Shown here piece after piece: positions 46,644 through 55,841 of a stretch of 64,000 nt of DNA (position 1 is its first letter; every line of letters starts with the position of its first letter). This stretch comes from Natronolimnohabitans sp. A-GB9 (GTDB taxonomy: Archaea > Halobacteriota > Halobacteria > Halobacteriales > Natrialbaceae), in assembly GCF_030848565.1 (NCBI RefSeq), contig NZ_JAVDDV010000002.1, positions 186,001-250,000 on the forward strand, given 5' to 3'. The position numbers and the translations under genes are program-made. A model generated the notes under the pieces. The model saw nothing but the letters and a program-made list of their open reading frames with translations, had not been told where the DNA came from and ran no database searches.

Positions 46644-48143
46644 TCAGTTCTTGAGCACGGTGATGACCAGCGAGAGCGCGGTGAGGACCAACAGCCCGAT
46701 CGCGATGGGACTGTTGAAGAGGAATGCCGTGGCGCTCTCGCCGGTCAGCAGCCAGCCGGTGACGAAGCCAGACTCGGCGATATCACCGAGGATGACGCCC
46801 AGGACGATACTGACCAGCGGATAGTCGTACGCGACGAACAGGATCCCGACGATACCGAACAGCAAGACGATATAGAGGTCGACGGTGGCGTTGCGCACCG
46901 CGAAGGCACCGACGATGGCGAGTACCGTCACCGCCGGGATGATGTATCGGACCGGGATATAGGCGAGTTTCCCGAAGTACTGTGACCCCGAGACACCGTA
47001 CAACAGGATGAGGACGTTACCGATGAACAGCGAGAGGATCATCGCGTAGACGATATCGCCCGAGGAGTCGAACAGGCCGGGCCCGGGATTCAGCCCGTGG
47101 AGCGCGATCGCACCTAACAGCGCCGCCGTCGCACCGCTGCCGGGGATTCCGAGGGTAAGCGTCGGAATCAGTGCACCGCCTTGTGTCGCGTTGTTACTCG
47201 AGTCCGCGGCGATCACGCCTTCGATGGTGCCGTTGCCGAAGCGAGACGCCAGTTCGTCGCTGGCCCAGCGTTTGGCCTCGTTGTAGGAGACGAAGTTCGC
47301 GACGTCTGCGCCGGCGCCGGGCAACGAGCCGACGAAGGCGCCGATGAACATCCCCCTGATCGTCTCGATCGGACGCGAGACGACCGCGCGGACGCCGTTG
47401 TACACCTCCGAGAGACTACCGCCGGTGCGGTCGTTGTCCTCGGTAACGACGGTGCCACGATAGCCGAGCCGGAACACCTCGGTGAGGACGAACAGCCCGA
47501 TCAGGACGACGATGAAGTCGACACCGTCGAGCAGCGCCGTCTGGTCGAACGTCGCCCGCGACTGGGAGAGCTGTGGGTCGTTCCCGATCGTGCCGATCAA
47601 CAGCCCGAACGCACCTGCAAGCAGCGCCTTCGAGAGCGACGACCCCTTCGCGGCGGGGATGATCGTCAACGCGAACACTGCGAGCAGGAACATCTCCGGC
47701 GGTCCGAAGTTGAGGGCGAACGACGAGATCGGCGGCGCGAAGACGAGAAGCACGGCGGCTGCAAACAGGCCGGCGATCCCCGAGACGATCGCAGAGACCG
47801 CAAGCGTATAGACGGCCCGTCCCTGTTTCGTGAGTTCGTACCCGTCCCAACAGGTCACGACCGAGCCCGGTGCGCCCGGCGTGTTGATGAGGATCGCCGG
47901 AATCGAACCGCCGTACACCGCGCCACCGTAGGCCGAGACCAGGAAGATCAGTGCCGAGGTCGGCTCGAACGCGATCGTCACTGGGGTAAAGAGGACGATC
48001 GTCATCGTCGCCGAGAACCCGGGTATCGCCCCGAACACGACGCCGATCGCGGTCCCGAGGACGATCGCGAGGAGGATGTACGGGTCGGTAAGGATGCCGA
48101 GGCCGGCTTCGATCGATGCCGGCGTGAAGACGACGTCGATCAT
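46644..48143 (-). CDS. tctA: Tripartite tricarboxylate transporter permease, TctA
   Basis: A 499-residue protein with about 11-12 membrane helices. The duplicated family motif shows as IGVVFGAIPGFSATM near residue 38 and FVGSLPGAGADVANFVSYNEAKRWA in the second half. AVYGGSIPAILINTPGAPGS is the TctA signature. It imports organic anions with TctB and the binding protein TctC, driven by an ion gradient. The substrate is unknown. The start overlaps the tctB stop by four bases; the in-frame ATG six codons upstream is less likely. Confidence 0.9.
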   Translation of the reverse strand: MIDVVFTPASIEAGLGILTDPYILLAIVLGTAIGVVFGAIPGFSATMTIVLFTPVTIAFEPTSALIFLVSAYGGAVYGGSIPAILINTPGAPGSVVTCWDGYELTKQGRAVYTLAVSAIVSGIAGLFAAAVLLVFAPPISSFALNFGPPEMFLLAVFALTIIPAAKGSSLSKALLAGAFGLLIGTIGNDPQLSQSRATFDQTALLDGVDFIVVLIGLFVLTEVFRLGYRGTVVTEDNDRTGGSLSEVYNGVRAVVSRPIETIRGMFIGAFVGSLPGAGADVANFVSYNEAKRWASDELASRFGNGTIEGVIAADSSNNATQGGALIPTLTLGIPGSGATAALLGAIALHGLNPGPGLFDSSGDIVYAMILSLFIGNVLILLYGVSGSQYFGKLAYIPVRYIIPAVTVLAIVGAFAVRNATVDLYIVLLFGIVGILFVAYDYPLVSIVLGVILGDIAESGFVTGWLLTGESATAFLFNSPIAIGLLVLTALSLVITVLKN

Positions 48144-48694
48144 AACGGAACCCTCAGCCACTGGACGAACACGATCCAGACGACGAACGCGACCCCGACC
48201 GAGTAGAGCGCAATCCTGGTCGGATCGCGCTCACCGAAGAGATACAGCGTGATCGCGAGAAAGGCGATAGTCGCTACGAGAAAGCCGATCACGTCGAGCA
48301 CGGCGATGTAGACGACCGTCAGACCGATCAACAACGCCGCGTTCCGGACCGTAAACGCCGGGTCGTCCGTTCCCGTCTCGGGAGTGGCTCCCTCGGAGGC
48401 TAACTCGGCCGACTCGGTCGGTGGCTCGTCGGGTGGACGCTCGGATCGCTCGAGACCGGTGTCGCCGTCGATCGAAATCGCCTGTCCGAGGATCGTCACG
48501 ACGGCGAGACCGACTGTGGCGTACAGAAGTGGGCCCGCATACAGCATCGAAAGGTCCGGCAGCGCGTACGTGTCCCAGTAGTAGTACAGGCAAAACGCCA
48601 GTACGATCCCCGGAAACAACAGTTCACCTGTATCGATACTGATGGTTCGCGAACCGGCCGAAACGGTGACGACCGGTGGTGTAGGTCGTGTCAT
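48140..48694 (-). CDS. tctB: Tripartite tricarboxylate transporter small subunit, TctB
   Basis: A 184-residue protein with four membrane segments (about 25-45, 52-70, 118-150 and 160-180) split by an acidic loop of about 45 residues. The two-plus-two helix pattern and position between tctC and tctA identify it as TctB, since sequence conservation is low in this family. It starts four bases after tctC ends. Confidence 0.83.
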   Translation of the reverse strand: MTRPTPPVVTVSAGSRTISIDTGELLFPGIVLAFCLYYYWDTYALPDLSMLYAGPLLYATVGLAVVTILGQAISIDGDTGLERSERPPDEPPTESAELASEGATPETGTDDPAFTVRNAALLIGLTVVYIAVLDVIGFLVATIAFLAITLYLFGERDPTRIALYSVGVAFVVWIVFVQWLRVPL

Positions 48695-48698
48695 ACGT

Positions 48699-49724
48699 CT
48701 ATTGGTCGTAGATGAAGTTCTCGATCACGTCGGCGTACGTTTCCATGAACTGAGCGTTCTCCTCGACCTCCTGTTCGGTCTCCTCAGGGCCGCGATAGTC
48801 GGCGATTTCGTCTAACCCACCCTGCTCTTCGATTCGTGTCTGAAACTCGTCGTCCTCGAAAACGGCGGCGTAGCTCTCGGCTAACTCCTCGAATCGGTCG
48901 GGGTAGCGATCGCGAAGACCGCCAGGTGCGACGATCAACTTCCACTGTCCGAGACCCTCCTCGACCAGCGGAATCTCGTCCAGACCGAGTTCGCCGAAGG
49001 CCGGCGCAGTCGGCCACAGCTCCTGTTGGTCGGGCGTGTGAGAGCCGAGTGCGGTCACGTCGTCGGCGTGGTCGGGATCGAACGCCCACGGCTGATTGAC
49101 CCCTGCGTCGATGTCGCCAGCGAGGACCGCCTGTCGAACGCCCGAGCCGCCCTCCATGTTGACGATCGAGAGATCGAGGTCGTACGTCTCGTCGACGAGC
49201 AACGCCGACAGCGCGGTGTTCCCGATCGCGGCAGTGATGCCGACGGTCGCCCCCTCCTCGCGAGCGTACTCGATGAACTCCTCGAGGTCGTCGTACGGTC
49301 GATCGGGGGGTGCAAACCACATCGTCGGATCCCAGTGGTGTGTCCCGATGTAATCGAAGTCCTCGGTGCGATAGGGCGCGTCCTGAAACAGCCACGTCGC
49401 CTGCATCTGTGGCAGGTTCCACATCGCGATCGTGGTACCGTCGGGCTCGGCGTTGTACACCTGCTCGCCGCCGACTTGCGTGGAACCGCCCGGATAGTTT
49501 TCGACGACGAAGTCGATCCCCTGGAGATCGGACCACGTCGGTGTCGTGACGCGGATCGCTCGATCGGTACCACCACCCTGTGCCCAGGGAACGATGACGG
49601 TTATGTGCTGTTCGTCGAACAGATCGACGACGCCGAGCACTTCGCCGCCGTAGATGCTGATTCCGGCGGCGCCGACCGCGCCGACCTTGAGAACGTCGCG
49701 TCGGCTAGTCGTCTCGTAACCCAT
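48699..49724 (-). CDS. tctC: Tripartite tricarboxylate transporter binding protein, TctC
   Basis: A 341-residue binding protein of the Bug/TctC family. The N-terminus TSRRDVLKVGAVGAAG is a Tat signal. The mature part has VIVPWAQGGGTDRAIR, VVENYPGGSTQVGGEQVY, GITAAIGNTALSALL and a C-terminal lobe with LIVAPGGLRDRYPDRFEEL. It delivers a carboxylate to TctAB at the cell surface. It is the first gene of the tctCBA operon on the minus strand. Confidence 0.88.
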   Translation of the reverse strand: MGYETTSRRDVLKVGAVGAAGISIYGGEVLGVVDLFDEQHITVIVPWAQGGGTDRAIRVTTPTWSDLQGIDFVVENYPGGSTQVGGEQVYNAEPDGTTIAMWNLPQMQATWLFQDAPYRTEDFDYIGTHHWDPTMWFAPPDRPYDDLEEFIEYAREEGATVGITAAIGNTALSALLVDETYDLDLSIVNMEGGSGVRQAVLAGDIDAGVNQPWAFDPDHADDVTALGSHTPDQQELWPTAPAFGELGLDEIPLVEEGLGQWKLIVAPGGLRDRYPDRFEELAESYAAVFEDDEFQTRIEEQGGLDEIADYRGPEETEQEVEENAQFMETYADVIENFIYDQ

Positions 49725-51727: not shown

Positions 51728-52426
51728 GTGGCGGCCGAGCGGGTCGACGGCGCCGGTCGCTGGCTTCGCGACCAGTTCGACCGCCTCTCGTGGTTCCAGA
51801 AGTCGCTGCTGACCGGCGCCATCTTGACGGTGCTCTGGACGCAGTTCGTCCCACCGGAACTCGATCGGCGGATCGCCGTCGACGCGATCCTGCTGATCGG
51901 CGGTCCGCTCGCGCTGGGACTGACTCACGGAAAACACATCGGGTGGAACATCAACCGCGTCGCCATCCGCAACGCGGTCTTGCTGTCGCTTTTCGTCTTA
52001 CCGTTCTATCTCGTCGGGTCGACGCTGCCGACGATCCGTGAGTATTATCCGATGTGGCAGACCTCCGCCGCGATAGGCGAGTTTCTCCCCCACGCGATCC
52101 AGCTGTTCGTCCTTGCGCTGGCTGCCGAGACCTACTATCGCGGGCTGCTCTGTGTCGGCGTCAAGGAGATCGGCTTCAAGGCGGTGCTCATCAGTCCCGT
52201 CGTTTACATGATCCATCACATGGGAAAGCCGCCGATCGAGTTCCTGCTGTCGGGACCGACGGACGTTCTCTTCGGTGCCGTCGACTACCAGTCGAACTCG
52301 ATCCTGCCGTCCGTGATCGCCCACGGCGCCGGGTTGGTCTTGCTCGACTGGCTCGTCCTCCACGAGCCGCTGTTCGATCCGACGGCCGCCCTCGAGTCCC
52401 TCGAGTGGCTCCCGGTTCCGCTGTGA
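51728..52426 (+). CDS. CPBP-family intramembrane protein, catalytic Glu altered
   Basis: A 232-residue membrane protein starting at GTG, with about six helices. Motif 1 of the CPBP (Rce1/Abi) family is AETYYRGLL, where the canonical form is EExxxR. The first Glu is Ala, so only the second Glu and the Arg remain. Motif 3 VYMIHHMGKP and motif 4 AHGAGLVLLDW provide His residues. Active members cleave prenylated proteins or bacteriocin-like peptides; loss of the first Glu may mean altered or absent proteolysis. The family assignment is fairly sure. Confidence 0.72.
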   Translation: MAAERVDGAGRWLRDQFDRLSWFQKSLLTGAILTVLWTQFVPPELDRRIAVDAILLIGGPLALGLTHGKHIGWNINRVAIRNAVLLSLFVLPFYLVGSTLPTIREYYPMWQTSAAIGEFLPHAIQLFVLALAAETYYRGLLCVGVKEIGFKAVLISPVVYMIHHMGKPPIEFLLSGPTDVLFGAVDYQSNSILPSVIAHGAGLVLLDWLVLHEPLFDPTAALESLEWLPVPL

Positions 52427-52505: not shown

Positions 52506-53231
52506 TCATCGACGCGTCTTCACGACCGCAAACAGACTGACTGCCAGCGCGATGATCGCAGCAACGCCGCCGAAGCCGGGAAGTCCGTCGCTCGCCTCGT
52601 CGGCGTTTGCATCACCGTCCGCGGTCTCGGTTGAAGCCGTCAGTTCGAAGCCGCTCAGGTCTGTACCGCTTTCCCACGTGGCCTCGATTCCATCTGACGA
52701 CGTCGGCTCAGGGGTTGCGGATTCGATCGTCGCATCCTCGGGAACCGTAACGACGAGCGTGCGATCACTCTCGAAGCCGCTCGCGAACGGTTCAGTGAGG
52801 ACGAGGGTGTCCTCTTCGAGGGCTGCGAGCCCGTTCCAGGTCACCGACAGCGCGACGATCCCGCGATCGTCGTCCGTTCGGGCGTCGACGTCGTCACCGA
52901 CGACGCTCGTCTCCCGGTCGACGTCGCTCTCGAGGTCCGCGGCGACCGCATCGAGGCGATCAGCGAACCGATCGAGCAACTCGGCCCGGGCATCGTCGTC
53001 GTTCCGAAGACTCTCGAACGCGTCGCGCTCGTCGTCGTCGGTCAAGTCGTAGACCGAAACCAGCGTGACCGTCGCGTCACCGTCGGCCTCGAGTTCGACG
53101 TGGACGGCAGGCTCGTGAGCATCGATCCGGTCGCTCGTGGACGCGCTCGCACCGGATCCGGCGACCGGCATCGCGATCGTCCCCACGAACAGCACTGCGA
53201 CGACGCCGGCGACTACGGCTGTTCGCTGCAT
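52506..53231 (-). CDS. PGF-CTERM-anchored secreted protein with regulator-like ectodomain
   Basis: A 241-residue exported protein. The Sec signal is at 1-25 (VVAVLFVGTIAMPVAGSG). The outer domain spans about 40-200. The C-terminus GLPGFGGVAAIIALAVSLFA then KTRR is a PGF-CTERM tripartite sorting signal, processed by archaeosortase ArtA with lipid attachment. The outer domain shares a pattern with the membrane-bound regulator at 54149-55246 (DGxAT, DDxxRxAFxSLR, FADR, DRExS, WxGxAA). It lies two bases after the coiled-coil gene. Function unknown; a surface partner or decoy of the regulator is my inference. Confidence 0.77.
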   Translation of the reverse strand: MQRTAVVAGVVAVLFVGTIAMPVAGSGASASTSDRIDAHEPAVHVELEADGDATVTLVSVYDLTDDDERDAFESLRNDDDARAELLDRFADRLDAVAADLESDVDRETSVVGDDVDARTDDDRGIVALSVTWNGLAALEEDTLVLTEPFASGFESDRTLVVTVPEDATIESATPEPTSSDGIEATWESGTDLSGFELTASTETADGDANADEASDGLPGFGGVAAIIALAVSLFAVVKTRR

Positions 53232-53233
53232 CG

Positions 53234-53980
53234 TTACCGTCCGGAGCGCTGTTCGTCGTCGGGTTCGTCACTCCCACTCGAGTCGCTTGATGAGTTGGCA
53301 GTCTCGTCGTCTCCGGCACGCTGGTCGTCACCGTCGTCGGTCCGGTCCTGTCCTGGGGTCTCGATCGGTGCACCCGGCTCTCGGTCCGGCGCAGGCGACT
53401 GTCCGACCGCGTCACCGGCGATCGACGTGGCGATCTCCGCGATCTCCTGACCGCCGAGTTCGTTCGCACGGTCACGCAGGTCTTCGATCGCCTCGACGTC
53501 GATACCGCGTTCCTCGAGGAGGTCCGCGGGGAGCTCTTCGGCAGTCGCCTGAGCGGCTTCGGCGGTGCGTTCGGTCGTCGCCATCTCGGCCGCGATGGGC
53601 GCGACTGCAGCGCGGTACTGCCCGTCGCTGATTTCGCCGGCTTCACGCTGCTCCTCGAGGTCCGCGAGTCGCTGTTCGGTCTCGTTGAGACGCTCCTCGA
53701 CATCGGCGAGCTGTTCCTCGACGACGTCGGCTCGCTCGTCGTCGCTCTCGGCGTTTGCAAGCTTGATGCCGTACGTGCGGTCGGAGAGTTCGCCCTGCAC
53801 TTCCGCTTCGTGGACGCCCACGACGCCGGAGAGCTGTTCACCGGGTGTTACGGATTCGGCGTCGGTTTCGTCGGGCTGTTCCTGGTCGTATTCGCTCGCG
53901 AACACGCCGGCCGCGCCGAGCGGCAGCGCCGCGAGCGCGACCATCAGTGCGATCGCGATCGTGATCGTGGTTCGTCGATT
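53234..53980 (-). CDS. Secreted coiled-coil protein, uncharacterised
   Basis: A 248-residue exported protein. The signal is at 1-28 (NRRTTITIAIALMVALAALP). The next 60 residues are acidic, a coiled coil is at about 80-165 (VEEQLADVEERLNETEQRLADLEEQ), and a Pro/Asp/Ser-rich disordered C-terminus follows (SSSDSSGSDEPDDEQ). It has no membrane anchor at the C-terminus. It resembles haloarchaeal coiled-coil proteins of the DUF7096 sort, from memory only. The start follows a TATA box 31-39 bases upstream (minus, 54011-54019). Confidence 0.66.
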   Translation of the reverse strand, partial: NRRTTITIAIALMVALAALPLGAAGVFASEYDQEQPDETDAESVTPGEQLSGVVGVHEAEVQGELSDRTYGIKLANAESDDERADVVEEQLADVEERLNETEQRLADLEEQREAGEISDGQYRAAVAPIAAEMATTERTAEAAQATAEELPADLLEERGIDVEAIEDLRDRANELGGQEIAEIATSIAGDAVGQSPAPDREPGAPIETPGQDRTDDGDDQRAGDDETANSSSDSSGSDEPDDEQRSGR

Positions 53981-54010
53981 CATCACGGTTGCCCATCTAT
54001 CGGCAACGAT

Positions 54011-54019
54011 GATATACAC
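54011..54019 (-). promoter_or_regulatory. TATA box of coiled-coil protein gene
   Basis: GTGTATATC on the minus strand, 31-39 bases before the ATG at 53980. A palindrome lies just upstream at 54049-54062. Confidence 0.55.
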
Positions 54020-54037
54020 TCGAGATTATTGCTCCGA

Positions 54038-54075
54038 TTCAACGATCATCAACGGCCGTTGACGACGTTCAACGC
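54038..54075. promoter_or_regulatory. Operator candidate: 14-bp palindrome flanked by TTCAACG repeats
   Basis: TCAACGGCCGTTGA (54049-54062) is a perfect palindrome. It is flanked by TTCAACG copies at 54038-54044 and about 54068-54075 on the same strand. It lies 30-45 bases upstream of the TATA box, where archaeal activators usually bind. The upstream gene encodes a membrane-anchored winged-helix protein. Confidence 0.55.
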
Positions 54076-54148
54076 GATTTTCGAACCGTTTCCTTCTTGC
54101 GATTTCATCGTTTTAGTATCCCAACTGCTACGGGCAGCCCAGAACCTC

Positions 54149-55246
54149 TCACTTCGTCCGAGGAGTCTCGTGTTCCGCGTCCGAATCGTCTCCCTCCTCG
54201 GGCAGTGTCAGGACGTTCTCGCGGCCCAGCCGGAACGACTCGAGTTTGCCCTCGTCGCGGAGGCCGCTGACGACCTTGCTCGTCTTCGCGTCGGTCCACT
54301 CGAGTTCCTCGACGACGGTCTGCTGTTTCATTCGGCCGTCGTACTCCTCGAGTAATCGGAGTACTTGCTCTTCGTTGCTGAGGAGGTCGTCTCGCGGGTC
54401 TGGCCCGACTTCGGTCTCGGCTTCGGACGGGTCGTCGGGAGTATCGGGTTCGGCGTCGTGGCTCGCTCGACTGCCGTCGGTCACCGATCGTTCGGTCGGC
54501 CTCATGCGAGTTCGATACCACCACGCGGCCGCGCCACCGAGCACGAGGAGGCCAACGGCGCCGCCGCCGAGAGCGACGAGACCGAGACTGGTGTCCTCGC
54601 TCGCGACGACGACGCGTGGCTCACCGGAGACGAAATCCGTTTCGCTCCCGTGCCAGATGACGACCCGGTCGCGTCGGTCGTCAGGTTCGGGAGCCACGGT
54701 ACGCAGTTCGTGCTCCTCGCCCCAACCGATCGACAGTCGGGTCTCGTCGTCGAGATAGAGGCCCTCGATCGCGTCGCCGGCGTGGAGTTCGTCGTCATCG
54801 ACTGCCGCGAACCCGTGCCACTCGAAGGAGTATCTGACCGCGCCGTACTCCGGTCCGAGCGTCTGGCGCTCCGTCTCGACGCCGAACTCGGTGGCTGACA
54901 TCTCCCTGTCCGTCGCCTCGCTTGCAGTCGCTACGGTCGACTCGATCCGATCCGCAAACGAGTCCGTGTACGCGTCCGGATCCTCGTCGACATCGTCGCG
55001 GAGCGAGTCGAAGGCCTCCCTGCTCTCGTCGTCGTCGAGACGCATCCGGTACTCGACGGTCCACGTCGCGGTTCCGTCGGAACGAAGCGACGCCTCCAGT
55101 CGAGTTTCGTCGGCGTCGATATCCTCGGGAAGCCCCACAGTGTATAGCGATTCGTCCCGCGTCGAGTCAGCGGACGCGATCGGACTGGCCCCCACGACGA
55201 TCCCGGTGATAACCAGCACGACCAGGAAACCCACTCGCCGATTCAT
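54149..55246 (-). CDS. Membrane-anchored winged-helix regulator with secreted sensor domain
   Basis: A 365-residue one-component regulator. The signal is at 1-26, the outer domain about 30-220, and one membrane helix near 228-250 (LVALGGGAVGLLVLGGAAAWW). An acidic linker follows, and a cytoplasmic winged helix at about 290-350 (LLSNEEQVLRLLEEYDGRMKQ, EWTDAKTSKVVSGL). This layout sends an outside signal directly to DNA. Its outer domain matches that of the PGF-CTERM protein two genes downstream. It starts 25-35 bases after TTAAAATAAT-like TATA sequence (minus), consistent with leaderless mRNA. Confidence 0.8.
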   Translation of the reverse strand: MNRRVGFLVVLVITGIVVGASPIASADSTRDESLYTVGLPEDIDADETRLEASLRSDGTATWTVEYRMRLDDDESREAFDSLRDDVDEDPDAYTDSFADRIESTVATASEATDREMSATEFGVETERQTLGPEYGAVRYSFEWHGFAAVDDDELHAGDAIEGLYLDDETRLSIGWGEEHELRTVAPEPDDRRDRVVIWHGSETDFVSGEPRVVVASEDTSLGLVALGGGAVGLLVLGGAAAWWYRTRMRPTERSVTDGSRASHDAEPDTPDDPSEAETEVGPDPRDDLLSNEEQVLRLLEEYDGRMKQQTVVEELEWTDAKTSKVVSGLRDEGKLESFRLGRENVLTLPEEGDDSDAEHETPRTK

Positions 55247-55380: not shown

Positions 55381-55647
55381 TCAGTTATCCGCTGGCGGCG
55401 CGTCGCCCGCGGGAGTACGGTCCTGAAGCGCGTCGCCGAGTGCAGAGATCACACCGGTAATGAAGTCATTGATCGCTTCCAGGAGGTCCGTGACGAAGTC
55501 CGGAACCGGCTCCGGAAGTTCGACCGGCGGTCCGTCTCCCTGCGCGTCCGACGGGGTTTCGGCCTGTGCAGCTGCACCGGCCGTCGCTCCGAGGAGGATC
55601 ACGACGGCGAACGCGATCGCGAGAGTGAGTGCGTGGCGTCTCATCAC
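55381..55647 (-). CDS. Small secreted acidic protein
   Basis: An 88-residue protein. The signal is at 1-28 (RRHALTLAIAFAVVILLGA), then a Pro/Asp-rich linker, an amphipathic helix (VTDLLEAINDFITGVISALGDAL) and a disordered tail. No anchor is visible. A TATA-like GGTTTATACTGG on the minus strand ends about 20-33 bases upstream, supporting a leaderless start at one of the two tandem ATGs. It heads the minus-strand surface-protein cluster. Function unknown. Confidence 0.6.
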   Translation of the reverse strand: MMRRHALTLAIAFAVVILLGATAGAAAQAETPSDAQGDGPPVELPEPVPDFVTDLLEAINDFITGVISALGDALQDRTPAGDAPPADN

Positions 55648-55841
55648 GATCGAAAGAAAGACACTCGCCAGTATAAACCGGTCAGTTCATTTCCTCGCTT
55701 TTCCGTGCTTTGACGCCGTTTGGGTCTCGTTTTCGGCGCTTTTCGCCGCTCGAGTATCCACTCTGAGCGTCTCTTTTCGTGTTCGTTCCACCTACGAGAC
55801 GTGGTGATGCATTAAGAGGGATGGTGACGAACGTTCCGTAT

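Follow-up and report, generated by a model that had tools for sequence, protein, structure and literature searches.

The 64-kb window (the whole stretch of 64,000 nucleotides analysed here) contains a minus-strand cluster built around a membrane-anchored one-component regulator, here called SENS. Two further genes of the cluster encode the secreted protein COIL and a probably surface-anchored paralogue of the SENS ectodomain, and a gene for a short secreted protein, SMALL, lies upstream (Table 1). The start codon of the anchored paralogue is 2 bp past the COIL stop codon, and its gene is convergent with that of a CPBP-family intramembrane protease. The first-pass annotation had described a set of three genes, all of which were recovered in place; SMALL, a fourth secreted gene, and the promoter arrays ahead of COIL and SMALL also belong to the set. 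Elsewhere in the window, minus-strand genes at 46644-49724 resemble, by eye, a tripartite tricarboxylate transporter set (TctA, TctB, TctC-like).

Table 1. Features of the SENS locus, in positions of the window.
Feature	Positions	Strand	Description
SENS	54149..55246	-	365 aa; membrane-anchored one-component regulator
SENS ectodomain	~54599-55117	-	DUF7345
SENS membrane helix	54506-54586	-	
SENS winged helix	54200-54385	-	DUF7343
SENS recognition helix region		-	WTDAKTSKVVSGLRDEG; inside the DUF7343 winged helix
COIL	53234..53983	-	249 aa; secreted helical-bundle protein, between SENS and the anchored paralogue
Anchored ectodomain paralogue	52506..53231	-	241 aa; signal peptide, DUF7345, PGF-CTERM-like tail
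SMALL	55381..55644	-	87 aa; short secreted protein, upstream of SENS
COIL promoter array	54034..54093	-	six units at exact 10-bp spacing: GGAAACGGTT CGAAAATCGC GTTGAACGTC GTCAACGGCC GTTGATGATC GTTGAATCGG
COIL TATA-like box	54011..54017	-	GTATATC; ~16 bp past the array, 34 bp ahead of the start codon
SMALL promoter array	55695..55745	-	CGAAAAGCGC CGAAAACGAG(A) CCCAAACGGC GTCAAAGCAC GGAAAAGCGA
SMALL TATA-like box	55671..55677	-	TTTATAC; ~17 bp past the SMALL array
CPBP-family intramembrane protease	51728-52426	+	convergent with the anchored paralogue (PGF-CTERM) gene

SENS is a member of the DUF7345/DUF7343 proteins of haloarchaea, several of which occur per haloarchaeal genome; Haloferax volcanii has at least one DUF7345 protein. 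SENS starts with a signal peptide, and its residues 53-176 match PF24036 (DUF7345; 104.5 bits, gathering cut-off 27.5) and residues 288-349 PF24034 (DUF7343; 97.9 bits, gathering cut-off 27.6). The AlphaFold2 model comprises an N-terminal helix, a beta-alpha-alpha-beta ectodomain (pLDDT mostly >90), a helix at 221-247 and a winged helix at 291-347; together with the Pfam matches it bears out the topology read at first pass, in which an outer domain is joined through a membrane helix to a winged helix. A transmembrane-like segment was present in 67 of 68 SENS homologues, and homologues share invariant residues. Searching solved structures by sequence with SENS and the anchored paralogue gave no usable relative. 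The best Foldseek matches of SENS were Fenna-Matthews-Olson proteins (E 4e-6), followed by mycobacterial LppM; with TM scores of ~0.2-0.4 and a multi-domain query, these were taken as a hint of the fold only. CsmR of Haloferax was also set aside as a relative, the passages searched not describing it as transmembrane. A SENS paralogue with a recognition helix of the Q type defined below lies, without COIL, directly upstream of argGH in the same genome (L124, C56:218000-231000), and the SENS-COIL(-PGF) cluster itself is found ahead of argG in other families.

The outer domain that the first-pass annotation had attributed to two genes of the cluster was recovered in both by PF24036, each protein scoring above the cut-off, and by blastp (E=1e-13, 31% identity). 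The anchored paralogue reached 67.7 bits (cut-off 27.5) and showed no PF24034 winged-helix match in Pfam, and 21 of its 21 homologues matched PF24036. Its tail consists of LPGFG, a hydrophobic stretch and the basic end VVKTRR, and PGF was found in 29 of 37 ectodomain-only proteins. On the PGF-CTERM model TIGR04126 the window's protein scored 15.9 bits, under the cut-off of 24.5. The archaeosortase signal proposed at first pass is nevertheless very probably real, because 16 of the 21 family members matched TIGR04126 (E<=0.1, best 4e-8) and the genome carries two archaeosortase A (ArtA) genes over the cut-off. A separate surface-anchored copy of a sensor ectodomain would be an unusual design.

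The secreted protein noted between these two genes is COIL, which has a signal peptide and was modelled by AlphaFold2 as a three-helix bundle (core at about residues 44-190, pLDDT mostly >90) with an acidic tail of low confidence. Foldseek against the PDB returned no match to the COIL fold at E<=0.001. Single-sequence search revealed no COIL paralogue in the same genome, and a profile search revealed one weaker match. PF23379 (DUF7096) matched 18 of 34 COIL homologues (best 8e-7), the window's own COIL being absent from the matches, and none of the 34 had a Pfam match to CpxP/Spy (LTXXQ). A distant COIL paralogue was seen in another conserved locus (L117-L123, L131-L133), where it adjoins an ArsR-like winged-helix gene (c12, ~220 aa). 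Loci with an opposite-strand layout (L111-L114, L172, L174, L182, L187) encode a COIL of 450-700 aa; in those read, it carries additions judged by eye to be PepSY-like and Ig-like, and retains its anchored DUF7345 partner.

SMALL belongs to no Pfam family, and alignment of 19 homologues revealed the conserved core GPPxDLPxxVPDxVSxxxxxIxxFxxGxxxxLGxAxxD. Natrinema-type loci (L092, L098, L104-L108) contain one or two multi-helix membrane proteins of 116-124 aa (cluster c4) between SMALL and SENS.

In a comparison of 83 COIL loci from haloarchaeal families, a DUF7345 gene lay no more than two genes from COIL at 78, whereas the chance expectation of such adjacency, estimated from ~4 DUF7345 genes per genome, is <1%. 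SENS was present at 68 of these loci and an ectodomain-only gene at 38, with both at 28, the ectodomain-only form alone at 10 and neither at 5; since the loci were picked for containing COIL or its neighbours, these figures are fractions of COIL loci and not of genomes. The first-pass annotation had proposed conservation of the three-gene order as a check, and conservation across haloarchaea was borne out; the core of the system, however, is SENS and COIL, and the anchored paralogue is optional. Three arrangements were found, with SENS ahead of COIL in 54 loci, COIL ahead of SENS in 4 and the two on opposite strands in 10, and in most loci the gap between COIL and the anchored paralogue is a few bases. 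In the window's own family, COIL relatives adjoin SENS in 29 of 33 loci and ectodomain-only genes adjoin COIL in 14 of 14, and SENS was a neighbour of COIL in 20 of 20 loci from named genomes (Natronorubrum, Natrinema, Halobiforma, Halostagnicola, Natrarchaeobius, Halopiger, Haloterrigena and two MAGs). That several loci keep their chromosomal neighbours would suit the view that COIL and the anchored paralogue are structural surface proteins, adjacent to SENS through shared ancestry and chromosomal position alone; however, the association holds over the three arrangements and in different surroundings, and is backed by the promoter arrays, making this explanation very improbable. Because COIL accompanies DUF7345 in both of its forms, we predict that the ectodomain is its partner. 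Mirror-tree analysis did not separate ectodomain-COIL from winged-helix-COIL coevolution, both being confounded by species phylogeny.

The promoters of COIL and SMALL contain tandem 10-bp direct repeats immediately upstream of a TATA-like box. Plain 8-mer counts pointed to direct repeats upstream of COIL, and no enrichment of palindromic operators was found in the upstream regions. The self-match at lag 10 was 0.328 in COIL upstream regions, a value reached in 0 of 10,000 resamples, compared to 0.262 in control promoters. SENS promoters showed a slight excess only (0.280), and the small number of them that carry an array suggests that autoregulation is not strong. A first cross-family operator test placed only 10/35 and 19/34 promoters above the 99th percentile because operator types differ between families; it was replaced by type-specific models trained without the tested locus, in which 65 of 68 COIL promoters scored above the 99th percentile of controls and 59 of 68 above all 653 controls, a set from which small-gene and shared promoters were excluded. 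In the window, the COIL array was the best match to its type model (the K type, below) in the entire 64 kb, scoring 26.8, with 7.9 as the highest score anywhere outside the array. The regulon search of the 4.3-Mb genome used two patterns; outside the COIL promoter, where it matched in two registers, the strict one (<=2 mismatches) had a single further site, and its reverse had no match.

Across loci, array-to-TATA distances fall in 10-bp steps. A site just upstream of the TATA box is the usual position of an activator in archaeal promoters, and the array position accordingly suggests activation, making SENS a likely activator rather than a repressor. The opposite sign, in which array-bound SENS would repress and a surface signal would release it, inducing COIL and the small protein by derepression, has in its favour that repressors are common among winged-helix regulators of this size and that the sign of regulation is not readable from sequence. 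However, the arrays, up to 60 bp long, lie upstream of the TATA box in a fixed 10-bp register and do not cover the TATA box or start site, and we consider repression unlikely.

Comparison of the arrays with the SENS proteins encoded beside them revealed a correspondence between operator type and the residue that follows KTS in the recognition helix, which is K with GTTRAACGGC, Q with CTTAATCCGG and R with TGCAAAcsGC. Array type agreed with the helix variant at 63 of 68 loci in leave-one-out tests, and five-fold assignment was 93% correct compared to 25-50% with shuffled labels. In all seven genomes with two loci, the promoter scored best with the type of its own regulator in 14 of 14 cases in-sample and 13 of 14 with leave-one-out. 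The K versus Q contrast largely follows phylogeny, so that independent support comes mainly from the R-type paralogues. Two misfits were found: the small-gene operator of genome G232 scores as Q, whereas the SENS beside its COIL is of the K type, and the SMALL array of the window scores best with the R-type and not the K-type model.

That most of the K/Q contrast follows phylogeny is also what would be seen if another regulator bound the arrays and SENS acted elsewhere. Against such a regulator, array type tracks the local SENS recognition helix even between two loci of one genome, and arrays are missing (0/10) at COIL paralogues in loci free of SENS; we therefore regard it as improbable. We predict with considerable confidence, from operator and helix sequences, that SENS binds the promoter arrays of COIL(-PGF) and SMALL directly, and the match between recognition-helix residue and operator would offer a natural specificity code.

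A scan of 40 genomes with the Q pattern, which was built without any small-gene information, returned mostly COIL promoters and 12 places elsewhere, six ahead of an unlinked SMALL relative, three ahead of an orthologous putative lipoprotein of ~500 aa and three of unclear context. In a further set of unlinked SMALL promoters, 34 of 40 scored above the 99th control percentile and 22 of 40 above every control; in an earlier set, mostly linked to SENS, an array was present in 31 of 38 promoters, that of the window among them, compared to 15 of 684 controls. The predicted targets of SENS are thus secreted or surface proteins. In one genus (L199-L201), the gene of the ~500-aa putative lipoprotein that has the same operator is divergent from a 253-aa PCNA-looking gene.

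SMALL is secreted and has a strongly conserved core, adjoins SENS in the window's family and retains the array even when unlinked, all of which would suit an autoinducing loop in which SENS would recognise SMALL, or a fragment of it, as its ligand and hence induce its own signal. Such a loop would amount to self-reinforcing surface communication, with SENS as receptor-regulator for its own small protein and with COIL and the anchored DUF7345 protein as a surface-displayed capture or decoy system that tunes the response and sets its threshold. SMALL, however, was found in 114 of 243 genomes of the order, compared to 191 with COIL profile matches, many COIL genomes having no SMALL or too diverged a copy, and we think the loop doubtful, both as a circuit and as a means of communication.

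In sum, the conserved cluster and its operators indicate that SENS would control three secreted proteins made with it. The first-pass annotation had placed COIL and the anchored paralogue upstream of the sensor only, in a modulating role; on the evidence of the promoters, they are also predicted to be its targets. We propose that SENS monitors the outer surface via DUF7345, and that clustering or a change of state of its ectodomains would allow the cytoplasmic winged helices to align head-to-tail on three to six helically phased 10-bp repeats. Array-bound SENS, just upstream of the TATA box, would then activate COIL, the co-transcribed anchored paralogue and SMALL, after which COIL would bind the DUF7345 domains of SENS and of the anchored decoy, resetting the sensor. 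Ectodomain clustering is suggested as the switch by the combination of a membrane-tethered winged helix with three to six in-phase sites facing the same side of the DNA. Among the products are a decoy-like copy of the sensor ectodomain and a protein that probably binds this domain, so that the simplest circuit would be feedback on the surface sensor. For the predicted COIL-DUF7345 contact with negative feedback, we see the chances as evenly balanced, and for array binding, activation and some feedback role taken together as slightly better than even. Surface stress is a tentative choice of signal, which we hold at somewhat short of an even chance.

SENS might instead be freed by intramembrane proteolysis; the neighbouring CPBP protein would then be the protease, for which the anchored paralogue would compete as a substrate. 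The CPBP protein resembles the archaeomyxosortase MrtA (8e-21), and its gene is also found at the locus in a few relatives (L077, L079-L082). On the other hand, the protein falls under the MrtA cut-off (NF040590, 75 compared to 200 bits), is linked in six loci only, two of which (L080, L081) have no anchored paralogue, and is absent beside the remaining SENS-COIL loci of the family. With linkage confined to a few close relatives, the CPBP protease was rejected as a general partner, and release of SENS by proteolysis appears highly unlikely.

To our knowledge, few archaeal systems are known in which one protein carries a surface signal to DNA. The SENS system is widespread in haloarchaea and combines a small predicted target set with a simple, mutable operator of ten-base repeats, providing testable functions for two uncharacterized Pfam domains and two secreted families, and opening the way to direct tests, in a genetically tractable group, of the means by which archaea sense their own surface.

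The proposed system has features in common with three known ones. Like ToxR/ToxS of Vibrio, it pairs a membrane-anchored winged-helix regulator that has an extracytoplasmic sensor domain with a separately encoded extracytoplasmic partner. The ToxR operator is a tandem direct repeat with a 10-bp period, TNAAA-N5-TNAAA (PMC8517210), and a tandem direct-repeat operator of ~10-bp period is found here too. In contrast to ToxR, SENS has the opposite topology, with signal peptide and sensor first and the DNA-binding domain last, and it had no Pfam match to the OmpR-type Trans_reg_C domain. Unlike ToxS, the partner is modelled as a soluble helical bundle, the partner genes are predicted targets, and the host is an archaeon.

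For the feedback arm, the closest parallel is the envelope stress response of E. coli, in which CpxP binds and inhibits the sensor CpxA (PMC4160245); CpxP is a secreted accessory protein of all-helical structure, and its own promoter is a strongly induced target of the response (PMC4160245; PMC4817254). We think it probable that COIL and the anchored paralogue act back on the SENS ectodomain, in roughly the manner of CpxP on CpxA. CpxA, however, is a histidine kinase whose regulator is a separate protein, and COIL matched no known helical family, whether by sequence or by fold.

Among archaea, ArnR and ArnR1 of Sulfolobus acidocaldarius are likewise one-component regulators bound to the membrane; they form oligomers and control genes for surface structures (PMC6396743), and their HTH motif is in the N-terminal region (PMC13286277). 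The winged helix of SENS, in contrast, is C-terminal of its single membrane helix. We know of no secreted partner or ectodomain paralogue of ArnR or ArnR1.

SENS is outside both the ToxR and ArnR families, differing in the type or position of its winged helix, and COIL is outside the CpxP family, so that all three comparisons concern how the systems work. The literature search found no paper naming DUF7345 or DUF7343, in keeping with the earlier view of an undescribed system. New with respect to the literature searched are the secreted partners, the anchored ectodomain form and the operator of the DUF7345-DUF7343 proteins.
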